A DNA stretch of 28,953 nucleotides from Flavobacteriaceae bacterium. GTDB lineage: Bacteria; Bacteroidota; Bacteroidia; Flavobacteriales; Flavobacteriaceae. The notes beneath the pieces are model-generated. The model was not told where the DNA came from. It saw only the letters and a program-made list of their open reading frames with translations, and made no database searches. A program made the translations under genes and the position numbers. The stretch spans positions 32,207 to 61,159 of the forward strand of contig NZQO01000161.1 in assembly GCA_002693605.1 (NCBI GenBank), read 5' to 3'. Each line of letters opens with the position of its first letter. The stretch's first letter is position 1. This document shows, in pieces, positions 1 through 14,910 of this stretch.

Positions 1-665
1 TCCGACATGGTCCACATGATCATATGCATCGCCTCGGGCATCAGCGAGATGAAATCCCAGAAATTGTCATGCGCCGATTGCGCCTGCGGGAAGGCGCGAT
101 CCGGGGCTTGCTTGACCGAATGGACCAGGTCGGGGAATTTCATCGCGTCCTGGATGAAGAAGACCGGGATGTTGTTGCCGACGATGTCCCAATTGCCCTC
201 TTCGGTGTAGAGCTTGACCGCAAAGCCGCGCACGTCGCGGGCGAGATCTATCGAGCCCTTGTTGCCCGCAACGGTGGAAAAGCGGACGAAGGCCGGGACC
301 TTGCGGCCCTTTTCCTGCAGCAGATGCGCCGAGGTCAGATCAGGGATGGGATCGGTGGTTTCAAAATAGCCCCGGGCGCCGTAGCCGCGCGCATGGACCA
401 CCCGTTCGGGGATGCGTTCATGGTCGAAGTGAAAGAGCTTTTCGCGAAAATGGAAATCTTCCATCAGCGTCGGGCCGCGCGCCCCGGCCTTGAGCGAGTT
501 TTGGTTGTCGGCGACCGGCACGCCCTGGGCGGTGGTCAGACGCTGGCCGTCCCCGGCACGCTGATGCGTCTCGCCGCCCTGTCCGACATCGGTCTTGCGA
601 TCCGTGGTCTCGTTGGTCTTTTGCGTTTCGATCGAGGGGTGAAAATCTGACGGTTTGCTTGGCAT
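1..665 (-). CDS. katE: Clade II (large-subunit) catalase, N-terminal part, cut by window edge
   Basis: Heme catalase that dismutates hydrogen peroxide in the cytoplasm. The first 221 codons are present; the rest lies to the left of the window. The start is the ATG at 665-663. An N-terminal extension of about 50 residues precedes the catalase core, as in HPII-type enzymes. The segment reading [18 protein letters not shown] opens the core, ERVVHARG carries the catalytic His, and [17 protein letters not shown] carries the distal Asn. The visible part ends in MWTMS, just before the usual DRGIP segment. The C-terminal heme-ligand Tyr and the flavodoxin-like domain expected for clade II cannot be seen. 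An EcfG-type promoter lies 47 bases upstream. Family assignment is secure; the clade is inferred from the N-terminus. Confidence 0.95.
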
Positions 666-711: not shown

Positions 712-737
712 AACGCGCGTCCGATTGCAGATGTTCC
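712..737 (-). promoter_or_regulatory. EcfG-type general stress promoter for katE
   Basis: On the minus strand this reads GGAAC (737-733), a 17-base spacer, then CGTT (715-712). It is an exact match to the alphaproteobacterial EcfG/SigT consensus GGAAC-N16/17-CGTT. The -10 element ends 47 bases before the katE ATG at 665. The same arrangement is found upstream of ku (1474-1499), and a near match precedes the ferritin-like gene (1396-1420). Confidence 0.75.
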
Positions 738-848: not shown

Positions 849-1355
849 TCACGCGGCCTTGGCCGATTTTGCGGCTTCGTTCACCGTTTTTTCGGCCAGA
901 TCCGTCAAATCTTCGTCGGTCTGGGATTCTTCATCCAGTGTTTTTTCGAGAAGTTTTGCGGCGTCATCCATGCCGAGTTCCTTGGCCCAGCGGCGGAGCG
1001 TGCCATAGCGGGTTATTTCATAATGCTCGACGGCCTGAGCCGAGGAGATCAGGCCAGCGTCAAGCGCGGCCGTATCCGCAAACTCGCTGATGATTTCCTC
1101 GCCTTCATCAATGATACCTTTGATCGCGTCGCAGGTTTTGCCGCGCGCAGGTTTGCCGAGAATTTCGAAAACCTCTTCGAGGCGGGACACATGTTCCTCG
1201 GTCTGCTCCTTGTGTTTGTCAAAGGCCTTCTGGAGTTTTGAATTGCTCGCAGCCCGGCGCATCTTGGGCAGTGCCTTGAGTATCTGTTTTTCCGCAAAGT
1301 AGATGTCGCGGAGGGTGTCGTGAAACAGGTCTTTCAGCGTTTTTTCCTTGGCCAT
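849..1355 (-). CDS. YciE/YciF-type ferritin-like protein (DUF892)
   Basis: A 168-residue protein of the YciE/YciF family, small four-helix-bundle proteins of the ferritin-like superfamily that are induced by general and oxidative stress in many proteobacteria. The sequence runs through LKDLFHDTLRDIYFAEKQI near the N-terminus, EQTEEHVSRLEEVFE in the middle and SAQAVEHYEITRYGTL later. These give the Glu and His residues expected of a di-iron site. The ATG at 1355 was chosen over an in-frame ATG at 1397 because an AAAGGAGA ribosome site lies 6-8 bases upstream of it. The C-terminus is Ala/Lys rich. The gene is transcribed away from ku and towards katE, and a near-consensus EcfG promoter precedes it. 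Its biochemical role is not established in the family. Confidence 0.93.
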   Translation of the reverse strand: MAKEKTLKDLFHDTLRDIYFAEKQILKALPKMRRAASNSKLQKAFDKHKEQTEEHVSRLEEVFEILGKPARGKTCDAIKGIIDEGEEIISEFADTAALDAGLISSAQAVEHYEITRYGTLRRWAKELGMDDAAKLLEKTLDEESQTDEDLTDLAEKTVNEAAKSAKAA

Positions 1356-1395: not shown

Positions 1396-1420
1396 AACCC
1401 GATCGACGCATTTGGGTTCC
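1396..1420 (-). promoter_or_regulatory. Near-consensus EcfG-type promoter for the ferritin-like gene
   Basis: On the minus strand GGAAC (1420-1416) is followed by a 16-base spacer and GGTT (1399-1396), one base away from the CGTT consensus -10. It ends about 40 bases before the ATG at 1355. The position and the exact -35 support it; the mismatch in the -10 makes it less certain than the katE and ku sites. Confidence 0.5.
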
Positions 1421-1473: not shown

Positions 1474-1499
1474 GGAACCGGCAAAGCCCCGGCTGCGTT
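1474..1499 (+). promoter_or_regulatory. EcfG-type general stress promoter for ku-ligD
   Basis: GGAAC (1474-1478), a 17-base spacer and CGTT (1496-1499) match the EcfG consensus exactly. The -10 lies 59 bases upstream of the ku ATG. The site sits in the 203-base divergent region between the ferritin-like gene and ku, so both genes could be switched on by the same alternative sigma factor. Confidence 0.72.
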
Positions 1500-1558: not shown

Positions 1559-2389
1559 ATGGCCCCGCGTGCACTCTGGAAAGGGCAGCTTCGACTGTCG
1601 CTCGTTTCTATTCCGGTCGAGATTTTCTCGGCCACGAAATCCGCGTCGCGCGTGTCGTTTCGCCAGATCCACAAACCGTCGGGCAAGCGCATCCGCTATG
1701 AGAAATCCGTGCCCGGCATTGGCCCGGTCAAGACCGAGGACATCGTCAAGGGCTATGAGGTGGAGGAGGATGAGTACATTCTGCTCGACCCTGACGAGAT
1801 CGACGCGATCAAGCTTGAGACGAAGAAGACCTTTGAGCTGGTGCAATTCGTGGATGCCTGTGAGATTTCGCCGCTCTATTTTGACAAACCCTATTACATC
1901 ACCACCTCTGACGATCTGGCGCAGGATGCCTATCGCGTGGTGCGCGATGCCTTGCGGGAGGCCAACAAGGTGGGGCTTGGGCAGGTCACGATGCGCGGCA
2001 AGGAATATCTCGCGGCGGTGAAGCCCTGTGGCGATGGTCTCTTGATGGAGACGCTGCATTACGAGGACGAGCTGCGCGAAGCCGAGGAGATCTTTACCGA
2101 TATCAAGGATGAGAAGGTCGACAAGGAATTGCTCGAAGTGGCCCGGTCGCTGATCGATCGCAAGAGCGCGCCCTTTGATGCGGCCGCCTATCGCGACCAA
2201 TATGCCGAGGCGATGCAGGATCTTCTCGACGCCAAGATCAAGAACAAGAAAAGCCCGCGGGTGCGGGCGTCCGATGACGATGGCGGCGGCGGCGACAATG
2301 TGGTCGATCTCATGAGTGCGCTGAAAAAGAGCCTCAAGGAGGCTGGCGGCAAGAAACCGAAGAAACCATCCACCAAGAAGGCGTCTTAG
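1559..2389 (+). CDS. ku: Ku protein for non-homologous end joining
   Basis: A homodimeric DNA end-binding protein that recruits LigD to double-strand breaks. It is 276 residues, usual for bacterial Ku. It starts MAPRALWKGQLRLSLVSIPV, the typical first strand of the Ku beta-barrel, and continues through FRQIHKPSGKRIRYEK and YFDKPYYITTSDD. The C-terminal end is acidic/Gly-rich (DDDGGGGD), then strongly basic (KKPKKPSTKK), as expected for a Ku C-terminus that contacts DNA and LigD. The ATG at 1559 has GGAAGG 7 bases upstream; upstream in-frame sequence from 1376 has no Ku similarity and overlaps the promoter. The stop codon directly abuts the GTG of ligD, so the two are translationally coupled. 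Confidence 0.98.
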   Translation: MAPRALWKGQLRLSLVSIPVEIFSATKSASRVSFRQIHKPSGKRIRYEKSVPGIGPVKTEDIVKGYEVEEDEYILLDPDEIDAIKLETKKTFELVQFVDACEISPLYFDKPYYITTSDDLAQDAYRVVRDALREANKVGLGQVTMRGKEYLAAVKPCGDGLLMETLHYEDELREAEEIFTDIKDEKVDKELLEVARSLIDRKSAPFDAAAYRDQYAEAMQDLLDAKIKNKKSPRVRASDDDGGGGDNVVDLMSALKKSLKEAGGKKPKKPSTKKAS

Positions 2390-4897
2390 GTGTCCAAACC
2401 CCTCGATCCCTTGGCCAGCTATAACGCCAAGCGGGATTTCTCTCGCACGGGGGAGCCGCGGGGGCAGCGGGGGGATGGGCGGTCTCAGCGGCGGTTTGTC
2501 GTGCAGAAACATGCGGCGCGGCGTCTTCATTATGATTTCAGGCTGGAATGGAACGGTGTGCTGCTGAGCTGGGCGGTCACCAAGGGGCCGTCGCCCGATC
2601 CGGGCGAGAAGCGCCTCGCTGTGCGGACCGAGGATCATCCGCTGGACTACGCCGGGTTCGAGGGCACGATCCCCAAGGGCCAATATGGCGGTGGCACGGT
2701 GATGCTCTGGGATAGCGGGAGCTGGGTGCCGCAGGGGGATGTCGAGACGGGGCTGTCGGAGGGCAAGCTCAAATTCACCTTGCAAGGCGGGCGGATGAAA
2801 GGCGGCTGGGCGCTGGTGCGGATGCGCGGCAGGTCGGGCGAGAGGCGCGAAAACTGGCTGTTGATCAAGGAGCGCGACGATCATGCCAGCGACGCGCCGG
2901 ACGGGTTGACCAAGGGCGAGGCGGTGTCGATCCAGACCGGGCGCAGCATGGCGCAGATCGCCGAGGGCGCGCCGGCCAAAGCGCCGCCCGATCTGGGGCC
3001 GGAGCGCAAGCGCAAACGCCCGGAGTTTGTGAAGCCGCAGCTCGCCACATTGGTCGATGCCGCGCCGGAGGGCGATGACTGGCTGCATGAGACCAAGTTT
3101 GACGGGTATCGCTGTCTTGCGGCGCTCGGCAAGGGGGGGACGCGGCTCTATACGCGGTCGGGGCAAGATTGGACCGAGAGGTTTCACGCGCTGGACGGGG
3201 CCTTTGACGATCTGCCCTGCGAGGCCGCGCTGATCGATGGCGAGATCATGGCCGCGCAGATAATGGGGTCGGCGTTCTCGTCGTTGCAGAAGGCGTTGAA
3301 AGAGGGCGGTCCGCTGGTTTTCTTTGCCTTTGACCTGCTGCGTGTTGATGGCGAAGACCTGCGCACATTGCCGCAGATCGCGCGGCGCGAGCGGTTGGAG
3401 CGTCTGTTGTCGGGGGTGGTGGCTGACGGTCCTCTGCGGCTCAGCGAGCATATCATTGGCGGCGGGCCGGAGGTCTTTGCCGAGGCCTGCAGGGCCGGGG
3501 CCGAGGGGATCATCAGCAAACGCATCGATGCCCCCTATCGCAGCCGCCGCAGCAAGGCGTGGCGCAAGGTGAAATGCACGCGCCGACAGGAGTTTGTCAT
3601 CGTCGGCTATGCGCCCTCGGACAAGCCGGGGCGGGCCTTTGCCTCGCTCTTGCTGGCCAGTCACGAGGGCGAGCGGCTGCGCTATAAGGGCCGGGTTGGC
3701 ACCGGGTTTTCAGAAGCGGTGATGCGGGAGGTCAATTCGGCGATGACGCCGCGCAAAACACCGCCCTGCGCCGAGGTGCCGCCAGAGGTGGCGCGGGGTG
3801 CGAGATGGGTGCGGGCCGATCTCGTGGCGGAGGTCGCATTCGCCGAGTTCACCGCGGATGGCTATCTCCGCCATGCCAGTTTTCTCGGGCTGCGGGGTGA
3901 CAAAGAAGCGGCAGAGGTTCGTGTGGAGGCGCCGATGGAGGACCCGAACGATACAGAGAGCGGCACAGAGATCACATTGCGCGGCATCCGGATCAGCAGC
4001 GCCGACCGCCCCGTGTTTCCCAAGGCGGGTTGCAGCAAGGGCGATGTGGCGCGGCATTATGACCGTGTGGGCGAGCGGCTGATCGCGCTGGCGGGGCGGA
4101 GGCCCCTGTCGCTCTATCGTTGCCCGTCTGGCATCACCGATCCCTGCTTTTTCCAGAAACATGATGGCGGCGGCATGCCCCGCGAGCTGTCGCGCATCCG
4201 CATCAAGGAAAGCGATGGCGACAAGGCGGAGTATCTCTATGCCACCCGTCCCGAAAGCCTGATCGCGGCGGCGCAGATGGGCAGCATCGAGTTCCACATC
4301 TGGGGGGCGCGCACCGACCGTCTCGAGCGGCCTGACAGGCTGGTCTTTGATCTCGATCCCGATGAGGGGCTCGGCTGGGAGGCGGTTCGCAGGGCGGCGT
4401 TTGACATGCGCGACGCCCTCGCCACGCTCGGGCTGCACAGCGGGGTCCTCGTCACCGGGGGCAAGGGGGTGCATGTCTGGCTGGCGCTGCGCCGCAGTCA
4501 CAGCTGGGAGACGGTCAAGCTCTTTGCCAAGACCTTTGCCCATGTGATGGCGGCGCGGGAGCCCGACCGCTTTACCGCCGTGATGTCGAAATCGAAACGC
4601 CGGGGGCGCGTCTTTATCGACTGGTTGCGCAACCAACGGGGCGCGACCGCCATCGCCCCCTATTCCCTGCGCGCCAGAGACGGCGCCCCGGTGGCGGTGC
4701 CGGTGACCTGGGACGAGTTGAAAAAGATCGAGAGCGGCGCGCGCTTTTCCATGGGGGACATGGCGGCGCGGTTGCAGAAAGACTGTCCTGCGGCCCGGGT
4801 TCAGAGCGAATTGCAGAGCCTGAACGCGGATGTGATCGCGGCCTTGCAAGACTGGTCGGAACAGGTGGATGAGGGCGAGGGGACCGAGCCGAAATAG
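2390..4897 (+). CDS. ligD: Multifunctional ATP-dependent DNA ligase LigD (PE-ligase-polymerase)
   Basis: The 835-residue repair enzyme that processes, fills and seals ends held by Ku. The domain order is phosphoesterase, ligase, polymerase, as in Pseudomonas. The phosphoesterase (about 15-180) has QKHAARRLHYDFRLEW near residue 40 and the FEGTIPKGQYGGGTV signature near 90-103. The ligase (about 215-510) has the nucleotidyl-transfer motif ETKFDGYR with Lys236, FFAFDLLRVDG (311-321), EGIISKR (372-378) and WRKVKC (391-396). The primase/polymerase (about 530-825) has the metal-binding pair in VFDLDPDEG (Asp654, Asp656), GGKGVHVW (690-697) and VFIDWLRNQRG with the third Asp (744). The start is GTG at 2390, adjoining the ku stop. 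All three catalytic centres look intact. Confidence 0.98.
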   Translation: MSKPLDPLASYNAKRDFSRTGEPRGQRGDGRSQRRFVVQKHAARRLHYDFRLEWNGVLLSWAVTKGPSPDPGEKRLAVRTEDHPLDYAGFEGTIPKGQYGGGTVMLWDSGSWVPQGDVETGLSEGKLKFTLQGGRMKGGWALVRMRGRSGERRENWLLIKERDDHASDAPDGLTKGEAVSIQTGRSMAQIAEGAPAKAPPDLGPERKRKRPEFVKPQLATLVDAAPEGDDWLHETKFDGYRCLAALGKGGTRLYTRSGQDWTERFHALDGAFDDLPCEAALIDGEIMAAQIMGSAFSSLQKALKEGGPLVFFAFDLLRVDGEDLRTLPQIARRERLERLLSGVVADGPLRLSEHIIGGGPEVFAEACRAGAEGIISKRIDAPYRSRRSKAWRKVKCTRRQEFVIVGYAPSDKPGRAFASLLLASHEGERLRYKGRVGTGFSEAVMREVNSAMTPRKTPPCAEVPPEVARGARWVRADLVAEVAFAEFTADGYLRHASFLGLRGDKEAAEVRVEAPMEDPNDTESGTEITLRGIRISSADRPVFPKAGCSKGDVARHYDRVGERLIALAGRRPLSLYRCPSGITDPCFFQKHDGGGMPRELSRIRIKESDGDKAEYLYATRPESLIAAAQMGSIEFHIWGARTDRLERPDRLVFDLDPDEGLGWEAVRRAAFDMRDALATLGLHSGVLVTGGKGVHVWLALRRSHSWETVKLFAKTFAHVMAAREPDRFTAVMSKSKRRGRVFIDWLRNQRGATAIAPYSLRARDGAPVAVPVTWDELKKIESGARFSMGDMAARLQKDCPAARVQSELQSLNADVIAALQDWSEQVDEGEGTEPK

Positions 4898-4972
4898 GGG
4901 CTATCCCGCGCAAACACCGTAATTATTCTCAGTCTTTATGCTGATCTGCCGCTTTAGTCTCGCCTGCGGCGT

Positions 4973-5000
4973 TTGAAACTCGACAATTGCATGAGATAAT
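4973..5000 (+). promoter_or_regulatory. Candidate sigma-70 promoter for the hydrolase-kinase operon
   Basis: TTGAAA (4973-4978), a 16-base spacer and GATAAT (4995-5000) each match the housekeeping consensus at five of six positions, 77 bases upstream of the hydrolase ATG. The 180-base gap after ligD (4898-5077) holds no EcfG-type GGAAC-N16/17-CGTT on reading, so the sensor genes may be expressed constitutively while the stress genes to the left are EcfG-driven. Confidence 0.45.
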
Positions 5001-5077
5001 GCGTCATTGCACGCTATGTGATGGAATCTACGGCGCGGGTCACACTGGCGCACTAAATTCACCAAGGGACTTTGGGC

Positions 5078-5878
5078 ATGTTGACGCGGAACAAGGTGGT
5101 TGTTTCCGGTTTGGCCAATGGTAAGGCGCTTATTTTCATTCATGGCTTTGGCTGTGATCAGTCGATGTGGCGGCAGGTTGCGCCTGACCTTGCCGAAGAG
5201 TTTCAGATCGTGACCTATGACCTGACCGGCATGGGGCAATCGGACCTCTCTGCCTATGATCCGCACCGCTATGCCAATCCGCGCGGGCATGCCGAAGACC
5301 TGCTGGCGATCATCGAAGAGCTCGGCCTCGACGAGGTGGTGCTGATTGGGCATTCGATCGGGGCCACGATCGCGCTGCTCGCCGCCAATCTGGCGCCGGA
5401 TAAGGTGTCGCGGCTGGTTCTCGTCTCTCCGAACCCGTGTTTTGTGAACGCCCCCGCAGAGGGGTATCGTGGCGGTTTCTCTCATGAAGAGCTCGAAGAG
5501 CTGATCGCGTTTCTGGATGAAAACCATCTGGGTTGGGCGGCGCAGATGGCCCCGACCATCGCCGGGCAGCCGGCGGGCGCGCCTGCGGCGGACGAGCTCA
5601 CCCAAGGGTTTTGCCGCACCGATCCGACCATTGCCCAGCATTTCGGGCGGGTGACCTTTTTCTCGGATGAACGCCAGGCGTTTGCACAGGTGTCGCGCCC
5701 GGCCCTGATCCTGCATTGCAACGATGATGCGCTCGTGCCGATGGAGGTTGCCGAGTGGATGCAGGACTGGATGCCGGGGGCGACGCTGCAGGTGCTGCAG
5801 GCCACCGGCCATTGTCCTCATATGACTGTGCCCGCCGATGTGATCGCCGCGATCCGCAGCTATCTCGAGGATGGGTGA
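5078..5878 (+). CDS. rsbQ: RsbQ-like alpha/beta hydrolase (stress signalling)
   Basis: A 266-residue alpha/beta hydrolase of the RsbQ/DLK2/KAI2/D14 group. In Bacillus subtilis RsbQ binds an unknown hydrophobic small molecule and is needed for the PAS-containing phosphatase RsbP to activate sigma-B. Recognisable RsbQ segments are GFGCDQSMW (23-31), GQSDLSAYDPHRYA (53-66), PNPCFVN, GGFSHEEL and ATGHCPHM (242-249). The likely catalytic triad is Ser93 in GHSIG, Asp216 or Asp217 in NDDALVP, and His245. There is no signal peptide, so it is cytoplasmic. The ATG at 5078 has AAGGGA 8 bases upstream; an in-frame TTG two codons earlier is less likely. The gene is 5 bases from the kinase gene, and the ribosome site for the kinase overlaps this stop codon. 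Confidence 0.9.
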   Translation: MLTRNKVVVSGLANGKALIFIHGFGCDQSMWRQVAPDLAEEFQIVTYDLTGMGQSDLSAYDPHRYANPRGHAEDLLAIIEELGLDEVVLIGHSIGATIALLAANLAPDKVSRLVLVSPNPCFVNAPAEGYRGGFSHEELEELIAFLDENHLGWAAQMAPTIAGQPAGAPAADELTQGFCRTDPTIAQHFGRVTFFSDERQAFAQVSRPALILHCNDDALVPMEVAEWMQDWMPGATLQVLQATGHCPHMTVPADVIAAIRSYLEDG

Positions 5879-5883
5879 GGGCG

Positions 5884-7224
5884 ATGGAGAGCAAAGAAGA
5901 GCTTCGATCCAGTTTCACGGAACTTTTGGAGGATGCGCCCTGCGGGATCGTGGTGACGGACCCGGATGGGCGGCTGCAATATGTCAATGAGACGCTGAAG
6001 CGTTGGTTGAAGCTGCCCCCGGCTGCCGAGCGGCCGCAACGCTTGCCCGACCTCTTGACCGGCCCCGGCAAGCTCTTTTACGAGACGCATTTGGCGCCGA
6101 TGTTGCGGCTGCAGGGATTTGCCCGCGAGATTTCCTGTTCGCTGAAGGTGACGGATGGCGCGCCGCTTCCGGTGCTGCTCAGCGGTGTGGCGCGACGTGA
6201 TGCCGAAGGGCGCCCGACCCGGTTCGATTATACCGTTTTCGACGCCCGCGAGCGCCGCCTGTACGAGGACAATCTTCGGACGGCGCGGCGCAAGGCGGAT
6301 GAGCTTGCCGCCATTGTCCGCACCTCTCCGAACGCGATCCTGCGCGTCGATGCGGAGGGTGTCATCCTCAACTGGAACGCCGGGGCCGAGCGGCTCTTGG
6401 GGCGGAGTTTTGACGCGGTTCAAGGGCTTTGCGTGCAGGATCTGATCCGGTTTGCGGATCAGCCGGACTGGTTCCCGCGTGCTGTCGCCAGTTGCACAAG
6501 CGCGCGGGAAGCGGTGTTTGAGACGATGGACAACAAGGGCCAGCATTTTGAGATCACCGTGGTGCCGATCGCAGAGCCGGAAATCGGGTATAAGCGGAAT
6601 TTCTCGATCATTCTGCGCGACATAACGGACCGCAAGAAGGCCGAGTTCCGGCTCAAGGTCGCGATGAATGAAATGAAACATCGCATCAAGAACACCCTCA
6701 CCGTGGTGGGCGGGATCGCCAAGCAAACCCTGCCGGCGGAGCACCGTCCGCTCTTCATCGGTCGTCTGCAGGCCATGTCGAAAGCGCATGACATCCTCGC
6801 CAGCGAGGACCAGAAGACCGCCGATCTCATGGACCTGCTCAGGCTGACCGCCGAAGAGGCCGGGGGCGGCGCGCGCTTTCGCATTTCGGGGGTCTCCGCG
6901 ATCTTGTCCTCGAAACAGGCGACGAGCCTGTCGATGGCGCTGCACGAGCTGTCGACCAATGCGCTCAAATATGGTGCGCTGTCGGAGCCGGATGGCTATG
7001 TCGAGGTCACCTGTGAGCCGCTGGACCAGGGGGAGGGTATGCTCCGGCTGATGTGGCAGGAGCGCGATGGCCCGCCGGTGGTGACCCCCACGCACAAGGG
7101 CTTTGGCAGCAAGATGATCCACACCGTCCTGAGGTCCGATCTGGGCGGCGAAGTGGAGGTCGACTACCGTCCCGAGGGGCTGTGCTGTATGGTCACCTTC
7201 CGGCCCGAGGAAGAGGGGGGATAG
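5884..7224 (+). CDS. PAS-PAS-HWE sensor histidine kinase with RsbP-like PAS domain
   Basis: A 446-residue soluble sensor kinase. The first PAS (about 10-120) opens EDAPCGIVVTDPDGRLQYVN and contains GKLFYETHLAPMLRLQG and LPVLLSGVARRD; these resemble the PAS domain of Bacillus RsbP. A short coiled linker (about 120-145) leads into a second PAS (about 146-250, ending LRDITDRKKAE). The kinase core has the phosphoacceptor in MKHRIKNTL (His266), the N-box ALHELSTNALKYGALS with the family-specific His354 and Asn359, and the W-x-E motif (Trp391, Glu393). These three features define the HWE family, which often phosphorylates PhyR-type response regulators in the alphaproteobacterial general stress response. 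No membrane segment and no cognate regulator are seen in the window. It is translationally coupled to the RsbQ-like gene. Confidence 0.92.
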   Translation: MESKEELRSSFTELLEDAPCGIVVTDPDGRLQYVNETLKRWLKLPPAAERPQRLPDLLTGPGKLFYETHLAPMLRLQGFAREISCSLKVTDGAPLPVLLSGVARRDAEGRPTRFDYTVFDARERRLYEDNLRTARRKADELAAIVRTSPNAILRVDAEGVILNWNAGAERLLGRSFDAVQGLCVQDLIRFADQPDWFPRAVASCTSAREAVFETMDNKGQHFEITVVPIAEPEIGYKRNFSIILRDITDRKKAEFRLKVAMNEMKHRIKNTLTVVGGIAKQTLPAEHRPLFIGRLQAMSKAHDILASEDQKTADLMDLLRLTAEEAGGGARFRISGVSAILSSKQATSLSMALHELSTNALKYGALSEPDGYVEVTCEPLDQGEGMLRLMWQERDGPPVVTPTHKGFGSKMIHTVLRSDLGGEVEVDYRPEGLCCMVTFRPEEEGG

Positions 7225-7243
7225 GGCAGCGTGATAAACTGTT

Positions 7244-7264
7244 GGGCCGCGCAAGGGGCGGCCC
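7244..7264 (+). terminator. Stem-loop after the sensor kinase
   Basis: GGGCCGC (7244-7250) and GCGGCCC (7258-7264) form a 7-base perfect stem with a 7-base loop 20 bases past the kinase stop. No strong T run follows. It sits between convergent genes (kinase, aminotransferase) and could stop transcription from either side. The remaining bases up to 7402 hold no recognisable gene. Confidence 0.4.
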
Positions 7265-7402
7265 GAAGTCTGTTGGTGTGCTTACTGAGGTTCGCGGCCG
7301 ACTTCGTCACCCCTTTCCTATGGTTCGCGGCGGATCAGCACCGTCGGGACCCCGTTGGCCGAGCGGCTATATTTCGATGAGGGCCGCCGTGGCGACAGGC
7401 GA

Positions 7403-8500
7403 TCAGAGCGCGTCTAGGAAGATGTCATTCTCTTGCGCAGAGCCCATCGTGACCCGAGCCCAGGTTTCATAACGGGCCTCTTGCCAGCCTTTGATCAACA
7501 CACCCTTGGCGCGCAAGGCTTCGGTCAGAACCTTGGCCGGCGCGCCGGTGTTGAAAAACACGAAATTCGCCTGTGTCGGCGCGCAATCATAGCCTTTGGC
7601 GGCCAGAGCGGCGGCCACGCGGTCGCGTTCGTGGGTTGCCTGTTGAACCACTTGGGCGAGATGCGCCTGATCGTCGATGGCCTCGGAGGCGGCACAGGCG
7701 GCCAGGGCGTTGACGCCGAAAGGGTTGCGGGTTTTCATCAAAGCTTTGATCAGCGGCGCATCGCTGGCCACGCCGTAGCCCACACGTACGCCTGCGAGGC
7801 CGTAGGCCTTGGAAAAGGTGCGCAGGGTCAGCGCGGGTTTGCCGAGCTCTGCCATGATCGCCATGGCGTCGAACCGATGTTCAGGCGCGATGAACTCGAC
7901 ATAGGCTTCGTCGAAACAGATCAGCGTGGCGGGATCGGCGGCGGCGACGACCGTGCGGAATTCGTCCTCGGTGATCACCGGGCCGGCCGGGTTGCTCGGA
8001 GAGGAGAATATCAGCAGGCGCGGTTTGCTGGCCAGAGCGTCGCAGAGGCCTTCGACGGGGAAGGACCAGTCAGTATTGAAGGGCACCTTGGTCACGGTCG
8101 CGCCAAAGGCCAAGGCGCCGAATTCGTGCAGGCCGAAGCTCGGGCAGATGGTGACGACATGGTCCTTGGGGCGGATGATCGTGCGGAACAGGGCGCCGAT
8201 CAGGTCCTCGGAGCCATTGCCAAAGATCACATGCTCGGGCGTTGTCTCGAACTGTGCCGCGATCTTTTCGCGCAGCGCCGTATTGGCAGCATCGGGGTAG
8301 CGCCAGACACCGGCAGAGGCGGATTGCATGGCGGAGACGGCACGGGGCGAGGGGCCGAGCGGGCTCTCATTGCTGTCGAGTTTGGCGCGGCATTCGATGC
8401 CGTAGATCGCCTTGAAGCGGTCCTGAGCGAGGCCCGCGTTATAGTCGGGCAGCTCCGCAATTTCTTTGCGGACGAGGTCACTTGGAAAGGTCTCAGTCAT
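7403..8500 (-). CDS. hisC: HisC-like PLP aminotransferase
   Basis: A fold-type I, PLP-dependent aminotransferase of 365 residues, closest in layout to histidinol-phosphate aminotransferase. Seen are LDSNESPLGPSP (41-52), the cofactor-phosphate region FGNGSEDLI (93-101), SSPSNPAGP (166-174), the PLP-contacting DEAYVEF (198-204), and the Schiff-base lysine in TFSKAYGLAGVRVGYG (Lys231). It is the last gene of a leftward unit, 14 bases after an FAD-linked dehydrogenase and downstream of a transporter binding protein. No other histidine biosynthesis gene is near. HisC paralogues often act on aromatic or other amino acids, so a catabolic transamination is as likely as histidine synthesis. Family certain, substrate not. 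Confidence 0.85.
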   Translation of the reverse strand: MTETFPSDLVRKEIAELPDYNAGLAQDRFKAIYGIECRAKLDSNESPLGPSPRAVSAMQSASAGVWRYPDAANTALREKIAAQFETTPEHVIFGNGSEDLIGALFRTIIRPKDHVVTICPSFGLHEFGALAFGATVTKVPFNTDWSFPVEGLCDALASKPRLLIFSSPSNPAGPVITEDEFRTVVAAADPATLICFDEAYVEFIAPEHRFDAMAIMAELGKPALTLRTFSKAYGLAGVRVGYGVASDAPLIKALMKTRNPFGVNALAACAASEAIDDQAHLAQVVQQATHERDRVAAALAAKGYDCAPTQANFVFFNTGAPAKVLTEALRAKGVLIKGWQEARYETWARVTMGSAQENDIFLDAL

Positions 8501-8514
8501 CAGGGTTCCTGTGG

Positions 8515-9885
8515 TTATAGGTCAAAAATCTTGCCGGGGTTCATGATGTTGTCTGGATCAAGAGCGCGTTTGATGCGGCGCATGACATTGAGAGCGGGGC
8601 CATGTTCTGCCGGGAGATAGGCCTTTTTTCCCAGACCCACACCATGTTCGCCGGTGCAGGTGCCGCCCATCTCGATGGCCATGGTGACAAGGCTGGAATT
8701 GATGTGCTGGGCCTCGCGCAGCTCGTCTTGGTCCGAGGGGTCATAGAGCAGCACGAGATGAAAGTTGCCATCGCCCACATGGCCGATCAGCGGCGCTTGG
8801 ATCGAGGTGGTGGCGATCACCTCCTGAATGCGCGCGATGCAGCTTGGCAATTGCGAAATCGGGACACAGACATCGGTGGAGATGCCCTTGATGCCGGGGC
8901 GCAGCGCCCGCGAGGCAAAAAGCGCATCATGTCTGATTTTCCAGATCCGGGAAGCGTCTTCGTTGGATTGGGCGCGGTCGATCTTGAGGGCGGTTTCGGC
9001 GAGCCCCGCGAACGTGTCCATGTCGTTTTCAACCGTGGCAGTCGCCCCGGCCATTTCCACCCAAAGGGTCGGGCATTCCGGCAGGTCGGTTTTGGAATAG
9101 CGGTTGATCGCCTGCATTGGCAGCGTGTCTGCCAGCTCTATCCGGTTGAGAGACAGGCCGCATTGCAAGGCCATCACGACGGTTTCGGTGGCCTCTTGGA
9201 TGCTGGCAAAGCTGCACATCGCGGTTTGCGTCGCCTCGGGGATGCCAACCAGCCGCACGGTGAGCTCGGTCATAATGCCAAGCGTGCCTTCTGAGCCGAC
9301 AAGCAGATGGGTCAGATCGTAGCCTGCCGAGGATTTTCGCGCCCGGCCGCCGGTCTTGATGATGTCTCCGTCGGGCAAGACCACGGTCAGCCCGAGCACG
9401 AGATCGCGCATGGAGCCGTAGCGCACGGTGGTGGTGCCAGAGGCGCGTGTGGCCGCCATCCCGCCGAGCGTGGCATGGGCGCCGAGATCAATCGGAAAGA
9501 AAAGGCCAGTGGCGCGTAGATGTTCGTTGAGGTCCTGCCGGGTCACACCGCATTCCACGGTGCAATCCATATCGGCGTCGCGCACCGCGAGGATCCGGTT
9601 CATGGCGGAGAGGTCGAGGCTAATGCCGCCATGGGGGGCGTGAATTTGCCCCTCTAGGGACGATCCTGCGCCAAAGGGAATGACCGGCACGCCATGTTTG
9701 GTACAGGCTTGCAAAACATCCGACACCTCTTGGGTGGTCTTCGCCATGATGACCGCGTCAGGCAGCGCTGGCGCAAGGTGGCTTTCACCTTTGCCATGAT
9801 GTTCGCGCGCGGCCTGAGAGGTCAGAAGACGATCCCCGAATTGGGGGCGCAGCGCCGCAAGGAGGGCAGGGGAGTTTTGGTGCAT
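8515..9885 (-). CDS. FAD-linked D-lactate/glycolate-type dehydrogenase
   Basis: A 456-residue flavoprotein of the GlcD/Dld (VAO/PCMH) superfamily, which oxidises 2-hydroxy acids and passes electrons to the respiratory chain or an electron carrier. The FAD pyrophosphate loop is PFGAGSSLEGQ (70-80), followed by ASGTTTVRYGSMRDLVLGL and LVGSEGTLGIMTE of the FAD-binding domain. The C-terminal cap has GHVGDGNFHL, GEHGVGLGKK and the closing LDPDNIMNPGKIF. There is no GlcE/GlcF partner nearby, so it resembles single-subunit D-lactate dehydrogenase (cytochrome) more than the three-subunit glycolate oxidase. It lies between a solute-binding protein gene (separated by a terminator-like hairpin) and an aminotransferase. 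A hydroxy acid produced by this pathway is a plausible substrate; the exact one is unknown. Confidence 0.88.
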   Translation of the reverse strand: MHQNSPALLAALRPQFGDRLLTSQAAREHHGKGESHLAPALPDAVIMAKTTQEVSDVLQACTKHGVPVIPFGAGSSLEGQIHAPHGGISLDLSAMNRILAVRDADMDCTVECGVTRQDLNEHLRATGLFFPIDLGAHATLGGMAATRASGTTTVRYGSMRDLVLGLTVVLPDGDIIKTGGRARKSSAGYDLTHLLVGSEGTLGIMTELTVRLVGIPEATQTAMCSFASIQEATETVVMALQCGLSLNRIELADTLPMQAINRYSKTDLPECPTLWVEMAGATATVENDMDTFAGLAETALKIDRAQSNEDASRIWKIRHDALFASRALRPGIKGISTDVCVPISQLPSCIARIQEVIATTSIQAPLIGHVGDGNFHLVLLYDPSDQDELREAQHINSSLVTMAIEMGGTCTGEHGVGLGKKAYLPAEHGPALNVMRRIKRALDPDNIMNPGKIFDL

Positions 9886-9913
9886 ATGCCTGAGTATTCG
9901 ATTTGAGGACAGG

Positions 9914-9944
9914 AAAACGGGCCGGATCGAGATACGGCCCGTTT
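9914..9944 (-). terminator. Intrinsic terminator or attenuator after the binding-protein gene
   Basis: AAACGGGCCG (9915-9924) and CGGCCCGTTT (9935-9944) form a perfect 10-base stem with a 10-base loop. On the minus strand the stem runs into TTTT. It starts 18 bases beyond the stop of the solute-binding protein gene and ends before the FAD dehydrogenase start, so it would lower expression of the two enzymes relative to the binding protein. Confidence 0.8.
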
Positions 9945-9961
9945 CAGGGGTGACTTAGGGA

Positions 9962-11520
9962 TTAGGCGTTGAACCACCAGCGTTCGGCACAGCGGTTGCC
10001 ATCGAGATCCCAATCGCCAGAGATTTCCTCGCCCGTCGAAACCTTGCTCGATTTCGCATCGAGGAAGTCGGCCCAAACCGGAGCGATGAGACCGCCATCT
10101 TCGTGGATCAGCATCTGGCATTCGGCATAGAGCGCGCGGCGCTTGGCGTCGTCTTTTTCCGACCGAGCGGCGACCAGGGCGGCATTGAAGGCGTCGTTGT
10201 CCCAAGAGGTCTGTTATAGCCGCCGGCGATTGCTTCGTGCGAGTAGGCGAGCGACAGCATGAGGTCCTCGTTTGCGCGGCCCGACCAGCGTGTGGCAAAG
10301 AAGGGTCTCTTGGCCCAGATGTTGGACCAGTAGCCATCTTCTGGCTCTCGCGACACGGTGATTTTGATGCCGGCCGCGCTGGCGTGTTCGCTAAACAATT
10401 GCGCGGCATCGACCGCGCCCGTGAACGGCGTGTCCGAGGCGTGCAAGGTTGTGGCCAACCCTTCGGCACCGGCCGCTTTCAGGAGGGATTGCGCCTGCTC
10501 GGGATCATATTCATGTTGCGGGATATCGCCGTCATGATAGGCGTAAGCATTTGAAATCGGTTGGTCATTCGCGATTGAGCCAAAGCCGTTCAGAACCTTG
10601 TCGACCATATCTTGACGGTTGATCGCGAGTTTCATCGCCTTGCGCACACGAACATCTGAGAACAGCGGATCGGTGGTGTTCATGCTGAAGCAATAATGCA
10701 CCTTGCCCTGCGTCTGCATCAGGTCGATGCCCGGCATCACCCCCAGCAAATTGGCGGTGCTGGGGTCCACTGCGTTGATCGCGTCGAGCTGACCCGTTTG
10801 CAGCGCTGTTGTCCGAGCGTTCACATCACGGATCGCCAGCATTTCCACGGAATCGAAATGGGCGCGGCCTTCCTTCCAGTAGTTCGGGTTTTTGCGCACC
10901 ACGGATTTTACACCGGGCTCATAGCTTTCGAGGATATAGGGCCCGGTGCCGATCCCGGCGTCGAAATTCATGTCATCCGCAGGCACGATATACATACAGG
11001 TCAAGGACAGCACGGCCGGGAAGCCAGCATTGCCCGCGCCGAGCGTGATGGTCACCTCGTTCGGCGCGGTGGCCTGAACATCGCTGATGACCGCAGCGAG
11101 CGCTTTGACCTGCGATGTGGACGAATCCCCGCGATGCAGGTTGATCGAGAAAACGACGTCATCCGCATCCATGGTCTTGCCATTGTGGAACTCGACGCCC
11201 TCGCGCAGCTTGAAGGTCCAAACGGTCAGGTCTTCGTTGGAGTCCCAGCTGGTGGCGAGTTCCGGAACGAGGACGCCGCCAGCGCCCACTTCGATCAGGT
11301 TATTGCGCAATTGCCATTGCAGGTTCTGCATGAACTTGGTTTCTGTCGCTTGCGGATCAAGCGTTTCGCCGGAATCGAAACTGCCGATCCCCAGGCGCAA
11401 TGTGCCGCCTTGTGACGGTGTTGCGGCGCGAAGCGGCTGGCCAGAAACGCCAAGCAGGGCCGCCGCCCCGAAGGCGCCTGCGCCCAGCAACACGCTGCGT
11501 CGGTCTGTCGAGATTGTCAT
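9962..11520 (-). pseudogene. ABC transporter solute-binding protein, family 5, with a frameshift
   Basis: A periplasmic binding protein of the peptide/opine/nickel type (SBP_bac_5). The N-terminus MTISTDRRSVLLGAGAFGAA looks like a twin-arginine signal, with likely cleavage near LRAA. The family region GIGTGPYILESYEPG and typical segments such as LREGVEFHNGKTMDADDVVF and SDVRVRKAMKLAINRQDMV are intact. At 10210-10215 the frame breaks after GGYNR. Reading on in the next frame gives TSWDNDAFNAALVAARSEKD and a normal C-terminus ending CAERWWFNA, stop at 9964-9962. Restoring one base gives about 519 residues, normal for the family. The start has GGAGAA 8 bases upstream. Either a recent mutation or a sequencing error; everything else looks selected. 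It probably serves the permeases at 17599-19416. Confidence 0.88.
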
Positions 11521-11691
11521 CAGTGTTCTCCTGTTGGATTTGTGTCCTGTCGGCGCAGGTATTTTTGTCGGTCGTTAATATGTCTGCATTTAAGACGGTA
11601 TGGAGCAAAATTGCGTGTGACAAATCAGTTTTGGACGCCTATCGTTCAGTATTTCTAACGCAACGTGGAAGGCCCGGGGGCTGCTTAAAAA
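11521..11691. promoter_or_regulatory. Divergent promoter region, binding protein and LysR regulator
   Basis: This 171-base gap separates divergent genes, the usual place for a LysR-type regulator to bind. For the minus strand, TTGTCA (11623-11618) with a 17-base spacer and TACCGT (11600-11595) is a possible promoter with a poor -10. GTCT-N7-AGAC (11582-11596) overlaps that -10 and is a weak candidate half-site pair. The gap is clearly more AT-rich than the flanking genes. No strong operator can be claimed. Confidence 0.35.
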
Positions 11692-12594
11692 ATGAACTCT
11701 AAATTGCCCCCTTTGCGTGCTTTGCAAGCGTTCGAGAGTTTTGGCCGTCATTCATCTGTGCGGGCCGCCGCACAAGAACTCGGAGTGACGCCAGGGGCCA
11801 TCAGTCAACAGCTTAAGCTGCTCGAAGAGCATCTACAAACCCCTCTCACCGTAAAAGACGGGCGTCGCGCGGCGCTGTCGCCAAAGGCCAAGTCTTTTCA
11901 CGCGGTCGTGTCGATCGGGTTTGAGAAGTTGAGGAAAGCGCAGGCGCTTTTGGCGCAGCAGAATTCGGAGCTCGATATCAATGTGTCGGGCCTGCCGACG
12001 CTATTGATGAAGTGGCTCCATCCCAAATTGCACAGTTTTGAGGCCAGCAACGAAGGTGTTTCGATCCGCCTTGAGGCCACCCATGATGAGCCTGAGCCCG
12101 AGTTTTTGGACCATATGTTTCGCCTGACATACGGTGCGGCGTCGGAGCGTTTTCCACATGCGCGCGCTTTGTTTCATGACGTGTGTTTTCCAGTGTGCTC
12201 GCCCGAGTTCCTCCGGAAGAACCCGGAGGCGCTCGAGCCCTCCAACCTGTCGGATATGCCTTGGATCGATATCGATTGGGGGCCGTCCTTTTCCAGCGTG
12301 CCAAAGTTGGGAACATGGCTTGAGGCGCAGGGGTTTCCGCCGCCGAAACGCAAGCCGGTGTCGATCCATTCGCTCTCAAGCTCGGCCTTGGAAGCCGCGG
12401 CCAGTGGCAAGGGGGTTGTCTTGGCGCAGCTGTCGTTTGCTTCGGTCGATCTTGAGCTGGGGCGGTTGATACGCATCTCTCAATATTCGGTTGAGATGCC
12501 CGAGCCCTATTACATTTGTTGGGGGTCTTTGATCCTCGAACATGACAAGCCGCGGAGCTTTTTGAACTGGATTTTGGCAGAGGCAAAGAATTAG
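11692..12594 (+). CDS. LysR-family transcriptional regulator (GcvA-like)
   Basis: A 300-residue LysR-type regulator. It begins LPPLRALQAFESFGRHSSV and the winged-helix HTH (about 8-65) includes AAAQELGVTPGAISQQLKLLEE, the form typical of the GcvA/AmpR branch. The rest is the periplasmic-binding-like effector domain (about 95-295), ending FLNWILAEAKN. It is divergent from the binding protein gene and lies 98 bases upstream of the Rieske oxygenase gene in the same direction, so it is the obvious candidate regulator for one or both flanking units. The ATG at 11692 lacks a strong ribosome site; the reading frame and HTH position support it. Confidence 0.93.
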   Translation: MNSKLPPLRALQAFESFGRHSSVRAAAQELGVTPGAISQQLKLLEEHLQTPLTVKDGRRAALSPKAKSFHAVVSIGFEKLRKAQALLAQQNSELDINVSGLPTLLMKWLHPKLHSFEASNEGVSIRLEATHDEPEPEFLDHMFRLTYGAASERFPHARALFHDVCFPVCSPEFLRKNPEALEPSNLSDMPWIDIDWGPSFSSVPKLGTWLEAQGFPPPKRKPVSIHSLSSSALEAAASGKGVVLAQLSFASVDLELGRLIRISQYSVEMPEPYYICWGSLILEHDKPRSFLNWILAEAKN

Positions 12595-12655
12595 AAAAGC
12601 TAAACAATATCGCTATCGGGTTCGTTTTTCTTCCCTCCGACGCTGACGTATCGTT

Positions 12656-12667
12656 CTTGAGATCAAG
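12656..12667 (+). promoter_or_regulatory. Inverted repeat upstream of the VanA-like gene
   Basis: CTTGA-GA-TCAAG is a perfect 5-base inverted repeat 26 bases before the ATG of the Rieske oxygenase. AACA-CT-TGTT (12669-12678) follows directly. Position fits an operator in the 98-base gap between the LysR gene and its presumed target, but the repeat is short and could be chance. Confidence 0.3.
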
Positions 12668-12692
12668 CAACACTTGTTAGCTAGGAAATCTC

Positions 12693-13733
12693 ATGTTTCT
12701 CAAAAATGCATGGTATGTCGCCGCGTGGAGCGAAGAAATTGTTAATGATTTGCAGCAGGTTAAAGTGCTGGGCGAAAAGATTTGTATGTTTCGCAACAGC
12801 GACGGCGAAGTCATCGCCATGGAGGACGCCTGTCCGCATCGCAAGCTGCCGCTGTCAAAGGGCCGGATCAAGGGCGACACCGTCGAATGTGGCTATCATG
12901 GGCTGACGTTTGACTGCGCCGGGCAATGCGTCTGGGCCCCCGGCGGCGGGCGGGTTCCATCGGCGGCGCGGGTGCGCCCCTATCCGGTGCATGAAAAATA
13001 CGGTCTCGTATGGATCTGGATGGGCAACGCGGCGATTGCTGACGTCGCCGACATTATCGACATCCCGAATTTTGACAGCCCGGAGTGGGGGATCAACCGG
13101 GGCGCGGCGATGGAGCTGAGCTGTAATTACCTGTTGATGTGCGACAACCTGCTCGACCCGACGCATGTCGCCTGGGTGCATGAATCTTCCTTCGCGGCCC
13201 CGGCGACCAAGGACACGCCATTGCGGGTGACCAAGACCGATACGGGTGTGATCGTTCACCGTTGGATGATGGATCACGAGCCTGCACCGTTTTACAAGAA
13301 GGTGGTGGAGTTCGACGGCAATTGCGACCGTCTCCAGCATTATGAGGTGCGCTACCCGAGCCATGCGCTGATCCGGGCGGTGTTCACACCGGCGGGGACG
13401 GGCGGCGTCGATGGTCCGCTGCATGAAAACACCTTTGTCATGGACAGCTATAATTTCATGACGCCAACCACCGAAACCGAGACGCGCTATTACTGGTTCC
13501 AGCTGCGCAATGTGCGTCCCGACGATGACGACCTGTCGAAGATGATGAGCGAAGACGTGCGCCATGCCTTTGAAGAGGACCGCGCCGTTCTGGAACAAGT
13601 CCAGATCGGGATGAGAGACAAAACCTCGCCGCATATCGATCTCGGGATTGATGCGGGGCAGCTTCGCTTTCGTCGTCAGCTCGAGGCCATGATCGCCGAA
13701 GAGGCGATGGTCGATGCGAAGATGAGCCAGTAA
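12693..13733 (+). CDS. Rieske non-heme iron oxygenase, VanA (vanillate O-demethylase)-like
   Basis: The 346-residue oxygenase component of a two-component demethylase/hydroxylase. The N-terminal FLKNAWYVAAWSEE is the usual VanA-type opening. The Rieske [2Fe-2S] ligands are Cys47 and His49 (CPHRKLPLS) and Cys66 and His69 (CGYHGL). The mononuclear iron site is in NLLDPTHVAWVHESS, with the bridging Asp155, His158 and His163. AGGAAA lies upstream of the ATG at 12693. The reductase gene starts one base after this stop codon. VanA-like enzymes remove methyl groups from aromatic ethers or quaternary/tertiary amines, or hydroxylate rings, so the substrate cannot be named. Its place beside a peptide/opine-type transporter argues that the substrate may be imported by that system. 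Confidence 0.93.
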   Translation: MFLKNAWYVAAWSEEIVNDLQQVKVLGEKICMFRNSDGEVIAMEDACPHRKLPLSKGRIKGDTVECGYHGLTFDCAGQCVWAPGGGRVPSAARVRPYPVHEKYGLVWIWMGNAAIADVADIIDIPNFDSPEWGINRGAAMELSCNYLLMCDNLLDPTHVAWVHESSFAAPATKDTPLRVTKTDTGVIVHRWMMDHEPAPFYKKVVEFDGNCDRLQHYEVRYPSHALIRAVFTPAGTGGVDGPLHENTFVMDSYNFMTPTTETETRYYWFQLRNVRPDDDDLSKMMSEDVRHAFEEDRAVLEQVQIGMRDKTSPHIDLGIDAGQLRFRRQLEAMIAEEAMVDAKMSQ

Positions 13734-13734
13734 G

Positions 13735-14910
13735 ATGACGACCGGATTTCGCGATTTTCGCGTGGCGCAAAAGGTCACTGAGAGCGACATCATCACGTCG
13801 TTCTATCTCGAGCCCGTCGATGGCGCGCCTGTCTGGGAGGCGAGGCCGGGGCAGTATCTGACAGTGCGAGTGCCCACCGCGGATGGGCATCTTCTCAAAT
13901 CCTACTCGGTGTCGGGGGATGCGGCGCAGACCAGCGGTTATCGCATCACCGTCAAACGCGAGACGGGGCTCGACGGTGCGCCGGACGGGGTCGGGTCGTG
14001 CTGGCTTCATGATGTTGTGCAAGTGGGCGATGAGATCGCAGTCGCGGCACCTCGCGGGACGTTCTATCTCGACGAAGAGAGCACGCGGCCCGTTATCCTT
14101 TTGTCGGGCGGTGTTGGTTTGACACCGATGGTGTCGATGCTGCACCGACTGCGCGAGACCGATCGCGACGTGTATTTCCTCCATGCCTGCGAAGGCGGCA
14201 GCGTGCATGCGCTGCGCGATGAGGTCTTGGGCCTTGCCACGGCGCGCACCAAGACGCTTTTTGTCTATCGCAGTCCGAGTGCAGAGGACGAGGCGGCACA
14301 GGCCTTCGATGCCAAGGGGTTTATCGACAAAGCATTCTTGCAACGACATCTGCCCCTCGATGATTACGAGGTCTATCTCTGTGGCCCGACGCTCTTCATG
14401 GTCGCGATGTATCACTTGCTCCAGAAACTCGGCATCCCCAAGTCGCGCATCGCCTATGAGTTCTTTGGCAAGGGCGGCTCCTTGGATAAGGTGGAGGAAC
14501 CGACACGGTCGAAAACTGCCGCGTCGCGTGCGGCCCCGGCGATCCAGGCGCTTACCTTTGTGACGGACCCAGACGCCTGGGCCTCCGCAGACGAGACGCC
14601 ACGGCCGGTCAAAGCAACGTTCGACGCGGTGCCTGATACACCAGAGATCACAGCCAAGGGCGATGTGGTGTTCCGCAAGTCGGACGCCTCGGCCACATGG
14701 GGTGACGGCGTCAGCAGCTTGCTGGAGCTGGCGGAGAACGCGGGCATAGATCCGGAATTCAGCTGCCGCACAGGGATTTGTGGCGCTTGCGAATGCCGGC
14801 TGATCTCTGGAGAGGTTGAATATACCCAAGCCCCGCTCGAAGAGCCGGAAGACGGGCATGTTCTGATTTGCTGCACCCGGCCCAAGGGGCCGGTGGTGCT
14901 CGATATCTGA
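13735..14910 (+). CDS. VanB-like oxygenase reductase (FNR-type with C-terminal ferredoxin)
   Basis: A 391-residue electron-transfer partner of the preceding Rieske oxygenase. Domains in order: an FAD-binding barrel (about 1-112) with PGQYLTVRVP and KSYSVSG, an NAD(P)H-binding domain (about 115-245) with LLSGGVGLTPMVSML and VYLCGPTLFM, a linker (about 250-300), and a plant-type [2Fe-2S] ferredoxin domain (about 305-391). The cluster ligands are Cys344, Cys349, Cys352 and a Cys at 379 or 380, spaced C-x4-C-x2-C. The first half resembles the reductase part of flavohaemoglobins, with no globin domain. The start is one base past the oxygenase stop. It is the only such reductase in the window. Its stop codon is 4 bases from the stop of the convergent deacylase gene. 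Confidence 0.93.
   Translation: MTTGFRDFRVAQKVTESDIITSFYLEPVDGAPVWEARPGQYLTVRVPTADGHLLKSYSVSGDAAQTSGYRITVKRETGLDGAPDGVGSCWLHDVVQVGDEIAVAAPRGTFYLDEESTRPVILLSGGVGLTPMVSMLHRLRETDRDVYFLHACEGGSVHALRDEVLGLATARTKTLFVYRSPSAEDEAAQAFDAKGFIDKAFLQRHLPLDDYEVYLCGPTLFMVAMYHLLQKLGIPKSRIAYEFFGKGGSLDKVEEPTRSKTAASRAAPAIQALTFVTDPDAWASADETPRPVKATFDAVPDTPEITAKGDVVFRKSDASATWGDGVSSLLELAENAGIDPEFSCRTGICGACECRLISGEVEYTQAPLEEPEDGHVLICCTRPKGPVVLDI

Follow-up and report, generated by a model that had tools for sequence, protein, structure and literature searches.

Organization of the Locus

The window, i.e., the whole stretch of 28,953 nucleotides analysed here, carries at 5078..7224 of its forward strand a pair of closely spaced genes. 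The first (5078..5878) encodes a predicted RsbQ-type alpha/beta hydrolase of 266 amino acids, and the second (5884..7224), which starts on the same strand five bases after the stop codon of the first, a predicted PAS1-PAS2-HWE histidine kinase of 446 amino acids. These limits agree with those given in an earlier note on this DNA. We take ATG 5078 as the hydrolase start, and number the triad residues from it, where the list of open reading frames gives TTG 5072; for the kinase we take ATG 5884, the listed GTG 5755 falling within the hydrolase gene.

Upstream of the pair, on the reverse strand, are the first part of a gene for a large clade catalase (1..665, with the start codon at 665 read from the sequence and the remainder of the gene beyond the window; Pfam Catalase and Catalase_C match on L079 10761-12920) and a gene for a ferritin-like DUF892 protein (849..1355; PF05974, 214.8 bits). 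They are followed on the forward strand by the NHEJ genes ku (1559..2389; Ku domain match) and ligD (2390..4897; profile matches), the latter directly upstream of the pair. The start of ku is placed at ATG 1559 and not at the listed GTG 1376, because in the longer frame the Ku match sets in at residue 65. Farther along, between 10108 and 19416, the window holds genes of a peptide-type ABC transporter (a binding protein, two permeases and a double ATPase); a Rieske oxygenase, a reductase and an AstE/AspA-type hydrolase are encoded there too.

The neighbouring stress genes had been described as carrying EcfG-type promoters, and the pattern searches bear this out. Strict matches to GGAAC-N17-CGTT lie upstream of the catalase gene (712..737, reverse strand) and of ku (1474..1499, forward strand), and a weaker GGAAC-N16-GGTT-type match, detected with the relaxed pattern only, lies upstream of the DUF892 gene (1396..1420, reverse strand). 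The window contains three strict matches to GGAAC-N16-18-CGTT, against 0.65 expected, and at least three occur in 4 of 100 shuffles; two of the three are those before catalase and ku, close to the genes and on the correct strand, and the third, which lies within the kinase gene but runs against it, looks like chance. A Poisson estimate for two strict sites upstream of genes (P 0.0016) is post hoc, assumes approximately 26 genes with 200 bp each, and is not relied on. Before the hydrolase there is a sigma-70-like match, TTGAAA-16-GATAAT (4973..5000, forward strand), which is a consensus match only (one found, 0.7 expected by chance). No terminator-like site is seen between ligD and the hydrolase gene, and read-through from ku-ligD into the hydrolase is possible.

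Origin of the Contig

The bin that contains the window is a Bacteroidota MAG. The T9SS tail family gives 27 matches in it (the control gave a match only in Bacteroides, below the cut-off), and AT-rich relatives were found for it. The GC content of the window contig is 60-64%, compared to 38-54% in 13 other contig stretches sampled from the same bin, and the nearest relatives of the RsbQ/PAS-HWE pair are Rhodobacterales. Given the T9SS matches and the difference in GC content, we conclude that the window contig is alphaproteobacterial DNA misbinned into a Bacteroidota MAG; the relatives of the pair are the basis of the alphaproteobacterial placement. A host devoid of the general stress response (GSR), one possible reading of the missing NepR in the genome of the bin, was set aside because the bin is Bacteroidota and the contig is foreign to it.

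Owing to the misbinning, our first hydrolase surveys were centred on the wrong phylum. In these Bacteroidota-side loci (L043-L078), a PAS1-like protein follows the hydrolase in 30 of 36 cases (the six others being L050, L063, L064, L071, L073 and L077), and an HWE match is found in none of the 36. A HisKA motif is present in 12 of them, the rest being unclassified by motif, although 16 of them carry the HisKAb label in the PAS tree described below.

The RsbQ-Type Hydrolase

Among solved structures, the best match of the hydrolase is RsbQ (PDB 1wom; phmmer, E 7e-73). The next relatives are Olei00960 (3qvm) and then the plant receptors KAI2/D14, and ordinary hydrolases trail far behind at approximately 1e-15. 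Pfam and NCBIfam assign the protein to general families only. The triad named in the earlier note, Ser93 and His245 with an Asp that we place at position 217, is kept in all 11 aligned hydrolases. With RsbQ as its closest solved relative and a Ser-Asp-His triad, the product of 5078-5878 is, as judged from sequence, an RsbQ-type hydrolase.

The PAS Domains and the HWE Core of the Kinase

The first domain of the kinase, PAS1 (residues 1-128; 5884..6267, forward strand), had been likened to the PAS domain of RsbP. According to the available text of PMC3183031, nine residues mark PAS domains of this type, four of them essential, and the DIT motif is missing. We placed the marker sites by the spacing published there (C10, L13, L48, Q53, F55, C56, Y59, P62, E72, P86). 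P62 is a conserved position in addition to the nine. The window letters at these ten sites are C, V, L, K, F, Y, H, P, E and P, with V in place of L13 and Y in place of C56, so that C10, L48, F55, the H or Y of site 59, E72 and P86 are all kept; among the window residues are C20, H69, P72, E82 and P96, and the F-alpha helix lies around F65 (codon 6076-6078). In all 11 kinases the DIT motif is missing at the end of PAS1 and a D-[IV]-[TS] motif is present at the end of PAS2.

A protein search with PAS1 residues 1-130 gave 84 matches. An HWE domain is present in 51 of the best 52, the sole exception being P0047 (245 residues), and the other 32, labelled by their Pfam domains, are 17 phosphatases, 10 HisKA kinases, 4 cyclases and 1 unclassified protein. 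Across the 51 HWE homologues the signature is well kept: C10 in 49 (with two gaps), F or Y at site 55 in 51, H at site 59 in 47, P62 in 50, and E72 and P86 in 51 each. The phosphatase matches, among which are proteins of Saccharothrix, Actinosynnema and Nocardioides, are 42-48% identical to PAS1 in 16 of 17 cases (P0081: 35%). The alignment also reveals a post-PAS helix common to the window (TVFDARERRLYEDNLRTARRKAD) and the Saccharothrix phosphatase P0056 (TVFDARERRAYERELLAAKRRAE).

PAS1 might have grouped away from the PAS domains of RsbP. It falls instead with the RsbP-type, RsbQ-partnered PAS domains, and eight PAS2 rows stand apart, in a tree that is weak (few columns, 47 of 99 inner branches open). 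The tree has 105 rows, in which the HWE group takes two changes and a starred set comprises 33 of the 38 HWE rows; 29 of the 51 HWE proteins were put forward for it, P0052 dropped out, and P0084 was left unclassified. The signature residues, the missing DIT motif and the grouping in the tree together mark the window PAS1 as an RsbP-type PAS domain.

PAS2 (residues 139-256; 6298..6651, forward strand) is an ordinary PAS domain matched by Pfam PAS_4 and PAS_9 and by TIGR00229, with RDIT at its end. It is followed by the kinase core (residues 263-440; 6670..7203, forward strand), which contains HRIKN, HELSTNALKYGA and GFGSKMI. The HWE_HK family (PF07536) matches residues 263-336 with 57.9 bits, against a cut-off of 22.8, in agreement with the output class named earlier. 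The phospho-acceptor is H266 in HRIKN (codon 6679-6681), HELSTNA is the N box, and all kinase motifs are intact. The closest solved structures to this half of the protein are the LOV-HWE kinases 5epv and 6ph4. With PF07536 above its cut-off, HRxxN and the N box, the protein is, as judged from sequence, an HWE histidine kinase.

Conservation of the Gene Pair

A search of genomes for conserved pairs, which the earlier note had proposed, does find them. Among GTDB contigs, those with the pairs closest to that of the window come from Leisingera daeponensis (78%), a record labelled Nocardioides marinus (77%) and Limimaricola cinnabarinus (56%). At E 1e-50 or better, 17 of the 394 genomes searched in the family of Leisingera have the hydrolase, as do 7 of 385 searched in the class, and two genomes are common to both sets. 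An RsbP-type PAS protein comes after the hydrolase in all 17 family genomes and in four of the five further class matches (the exception is L143). The outputs in the 17 family genomes are HWE kinases in 9, HisKA-type or hybrid kinases in 6 and cyclases in 2, as assigned by motif, similarity and reading and not by a Pfam run on each protein. With the window, L007 and L182 (a Loktanella salsilacus plasmid), the nine family loci make twelve HWE loci. Over 11 of these loci, the distances of the hydrolase, PAS1 and the HWE domain correlate at 0.91-0.93, as expected if the pair has been inherited or has moved together. PAS2 is present in the 11 aligned HWE kinases. By homology, then, the hydrolase and the PAS1 kinase appear to be an RsbQ-PAS module with an HWE output, encoded by a real and conserved gene pair.

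The surroundings of the pair differ from locus to locus. A Ku or LigD match adjoins the pair only in the window and in L114, with none in the other nine HWE loci (some of the stretches being short). In L114 ku-ligD is divergently oriented, unlike in the window; the PAS1 of this locus is identical to P0019 of Roseovarius sp. 22II1-1F6A. Strict EcfG-type sites are absent from L114, and a near-consensus CGAAC-N17-CGTT before its ku was spotted by eye, post hoc. A further large HWE kinase follows ligD there, so that the NHEJ genes stand between two HWE kinases (4886-13800 for the whole row).

The RsbQ-PAS module travels on plasmids. RsbQ-type hydrolases (E 1e-45 or better) occur on 64 plasmid records from Streptomyces, Rhizobium, Phaeobacter and others, and in the plasmid loci that we opened (L182-L189) the hydrolase mostly adjoins a PAS kinase or cyclase.

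A Proposed Connection with the General Stress Response

HWE kinases are often used by alphaproteobacteria to switch on their own stress response, which is unrelated to that of Bacillus. We are interested in whether the genomes that carry the pair also carry this response. Of the 10 HWE-pair genomes, 9 have NepR (3/3 in one set and 6/7 in another), against 110 of 254 genomes without RsbQ (Fisher p 0.006, uncorrected for kinship and completeness). The latter count is 120/265 less six HWE-pair genomes, four other RsbQ genomes with NepR, and G1041, which we infer to be in the sample. The one HWE-pair genome with no NepR match, G1162, is a fragmented assembly of 2.7 Mb. Family genomes with other RsbQ-PAS outputs have NepR in 6 of 8 cases (p 0.14), and the contrast within one survey alone is weak (6/7 versus 28/60, p 0.11), both again Fisher values uncorrected for kinship and completeness. 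In the Leisingera genome, NepR is encoded together with PhyR, a sigma factor of the EcfG type and one more kinase (the frames were read by eye, and only NepR was profile-scored).

The EcfG regulon of Sphingopyxis granuli includes ku-ligD, two catalases and an HWE kinase (PMC7083833). HWE kinases of S. melonis and C. crescentus hand their phosphate to PhyR and to a hub receiver of the single-domain type (PMC5964349). In Rubellimicrobium (R. thermophilum), PhyR is phosphorylated by a LOV-HWE kinase (PMC12148442). Against a connection of the pair with this response stands the narrow role described for PhyR in R. sphaeroides (PMC5830050).

It is tempting to propose the following mechanism. The hydrolase and the PAS kinase would form a bipartite cytoplasmic sensor, in which a small molecule is bound, and perhaps cleaved, by the hydrolase; by analogy with B. 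subtilis, the hydrolase would touch PAS1 at its F-alpha helix. From there the helix between PAS1 and PAS2, and then PAS2 itself, would relay the change to the HWE kinase, and the kinase would autophosphorylate at H266. The phosphate would most likely enter the alphaproteobacterial HWE/HisKA2 network, i.e., the single-domain receiver hub and/or PhyR, and PhyR would remove NepR from EcfG and thereby induce genes such as the adjoining katE and ku-ligD. Docking and signal passage are modelled on B. subtilis, for which alone the available text of PMC3183031 reports the hydrolase-PAS contact, needed for signalling; in its models 1 and 2, the primary sensor may be the hydrolase or the PAS domain. The case for a PhyR/EcfG output of the window pair is circumstantial and draws on kinase family and context. 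Homology, signature residues, domain order and conservation of the pair are direct observations, and the RsbQ-PAS module itself is held to be far more likely than the chain to EcfG; for a bipartite sensor that feeds the whole chain through PhyR to EcfG, we see an even chance.

The earlier note went further and took the pair by itself to imply that the sensor has been re-plugged into a second general stress pathway. Its homology, PAS1, HWE and EcfG-site statements stand, and the pair is conserved, but this last step does not follow from the pair. Coupling of the module to histidine kinases has been in print since 2011 (PMC3183031), and HWE kinases do not all serve PhyR: in the available text of PMC12354254, PhyK of Brucella is not shown to act on the GSR. 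An EcfG-type site, strict or relaxed, is found within 300 bp before the hydrolase in none of 11 loci. Four receiver queries of limited reach detected no phyR-like receiver near the pair in the same number of loci (some stretches being 2-3 kb per side); their only matches are in L007, where a gene for a REC-LuxR regulator is directly upstream of the pair, and in L120, more than 4 kb away. The L182 plasmid has a row of genes (7992-13705) for the hydrolase, the PAS-HWE kinase, a KaiC ATPase, a second HWE kinase and a single-domain receiver. The restriction of adjoining ku-ligD genes to the window and L114, and the loss of the phospho-acceptor His in the relative L118, also count against the chain to EcfG.

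The regulator gene in L007, the gene row of L182, the varying neighbourhoods, the missing EcfG-type sites before the hydrolase and the case of PhyK speak for the alternative that the sensor has a target other than PhyR, such as a dedicated REC-LuxR factor or a single-domain receiver, and that the adjoining GSR genes are chance neighbours. Against it, no receiver gene was found beside the window pair, so that the window kinase is an orphan, as many kinases of the GSR are; in the other loci, the only counterpart of the L007 regulator is a distant match (36%) in L120; and NepR is enriched in HWE-pair genomes. We regard such a target as unlikely, if still a serious contender.

A second alternative keeps PhyR and reverses the sign, with the kinase acting mainly as a phosphatase or sink and the loaded hydrolase lowering the stress response. 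There is precedent in S. meliloti RsiC, which works both ways, and in LovK, which removes phosphate (available text of PMC12354254 and PMC5964349). One relative, L118 (G974), fits as well: in its kinase (5125-6414, reverse strand) SRVSTM replaces HRxKNT, so that the phospho-acceptor His is lost, and the N box is changed, while PAS1 and the hydrolase triad are still intact; it is perhaps a pseudokinase. However, the motifs of the window kinase are all intact, the phospho-acceptor His is kept in 10 of 11 relatives, and the module activates in B. subtilis, all of which makes a sink improbable. That the hydrolase is an ordinary metabolic enzyme merely sharing an operon with the kinase could be argued from how common alpha/beta hydrolases are and from its general family assignments, but the near-constant RsbP-type PAS neighbour, the correlated divergence and the distance to ordinary hydrolases make it very hard to credit.

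Returning to the chain through PhyR to EcfG, a broader proposal would be that one receptor-hydrolase/PAS input drives the GSR across phyla, through a PPM phosphatase to sigma-B in Bacillus and, in the Leisingera family, through an HWE kinase to PhyR-NepR-EcfG; in the window the module is clustered with stress genes, namely those for catalase and NHEJ. We put this forward tentatively, as somewhat short of an even bet. If it is true, the ligand of the module would be a general bacterial stress signal, perhaps chemically akin to the KAI2/D14 cue in plants.

Comparison with Known Systems

The coupling of RsbQ-PAS to histidine kinases is already known. Nadezhdin and co-workers in 2011 listed 45 RsbQ/RsbP-PAS pairs whose outputs are phosphatases, histidine kinases or cyclases, with extra PAS domains in five of the 45 proteins, and the text of that paper, figures aside, has no mention of the HWE class, PhyR or EcfG in the part available (PMC3183031). 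The coupling was restated in 2025 (PMC12143880). Our literature search for RsbQ with HWE in alphaproteobacteria, which covered few subscription papers and no figures, returned no paper, and one for RsbQ with PhyR returned a single review (PMC4598750). In the literature searched we did not find the HWE subclass, its concentration in the Leisingera family or its setting among GSR genes. The 2011 account describes the cue of the module as unknown and names B. subtilis as the one organism with a known target (PMC3183031). In named roseobacters (Leisingera, Limimaricola, Roseovarius), the version with a kinase output offers a direct phosphotransfer readout for ligand, docking and target, and would show whether one input module serves the same physiological end through different output machinery.

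The locus resembles four known systems. It shares gene order and module with the Gram-negative RsbQ-PAS histidine kinases in the available text of PMC3183031. With RsbQ-RsbP of B. subtilis it shares the triad of the hydrolase and the position of the hydrolase gene before that of a protein that begins with an RsbP-type PAS domain bearing the F-alpha signature; it differs in that the output is an HWE kinase and not a PPM phosphatase, and in that a second PAS domain is interposed. The PAS/LOV-HWE kinases of the alphaproteobacterial GSR (LovK, Paks, RT-HK) have the same HWE core with HRxxN, whereas the input in the window is a separate hydrolase with an RsbP-type PAS domain, and not light or an unknown cue. 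Finally, the butenolide receptors KAI2/D14 of plants, the next-best solved relatives after RsbQ and Olei00960, are receptor-type hydrolases that signal through a protein partner; for the window hydrolase, the predicted partner is a PAS kinase.
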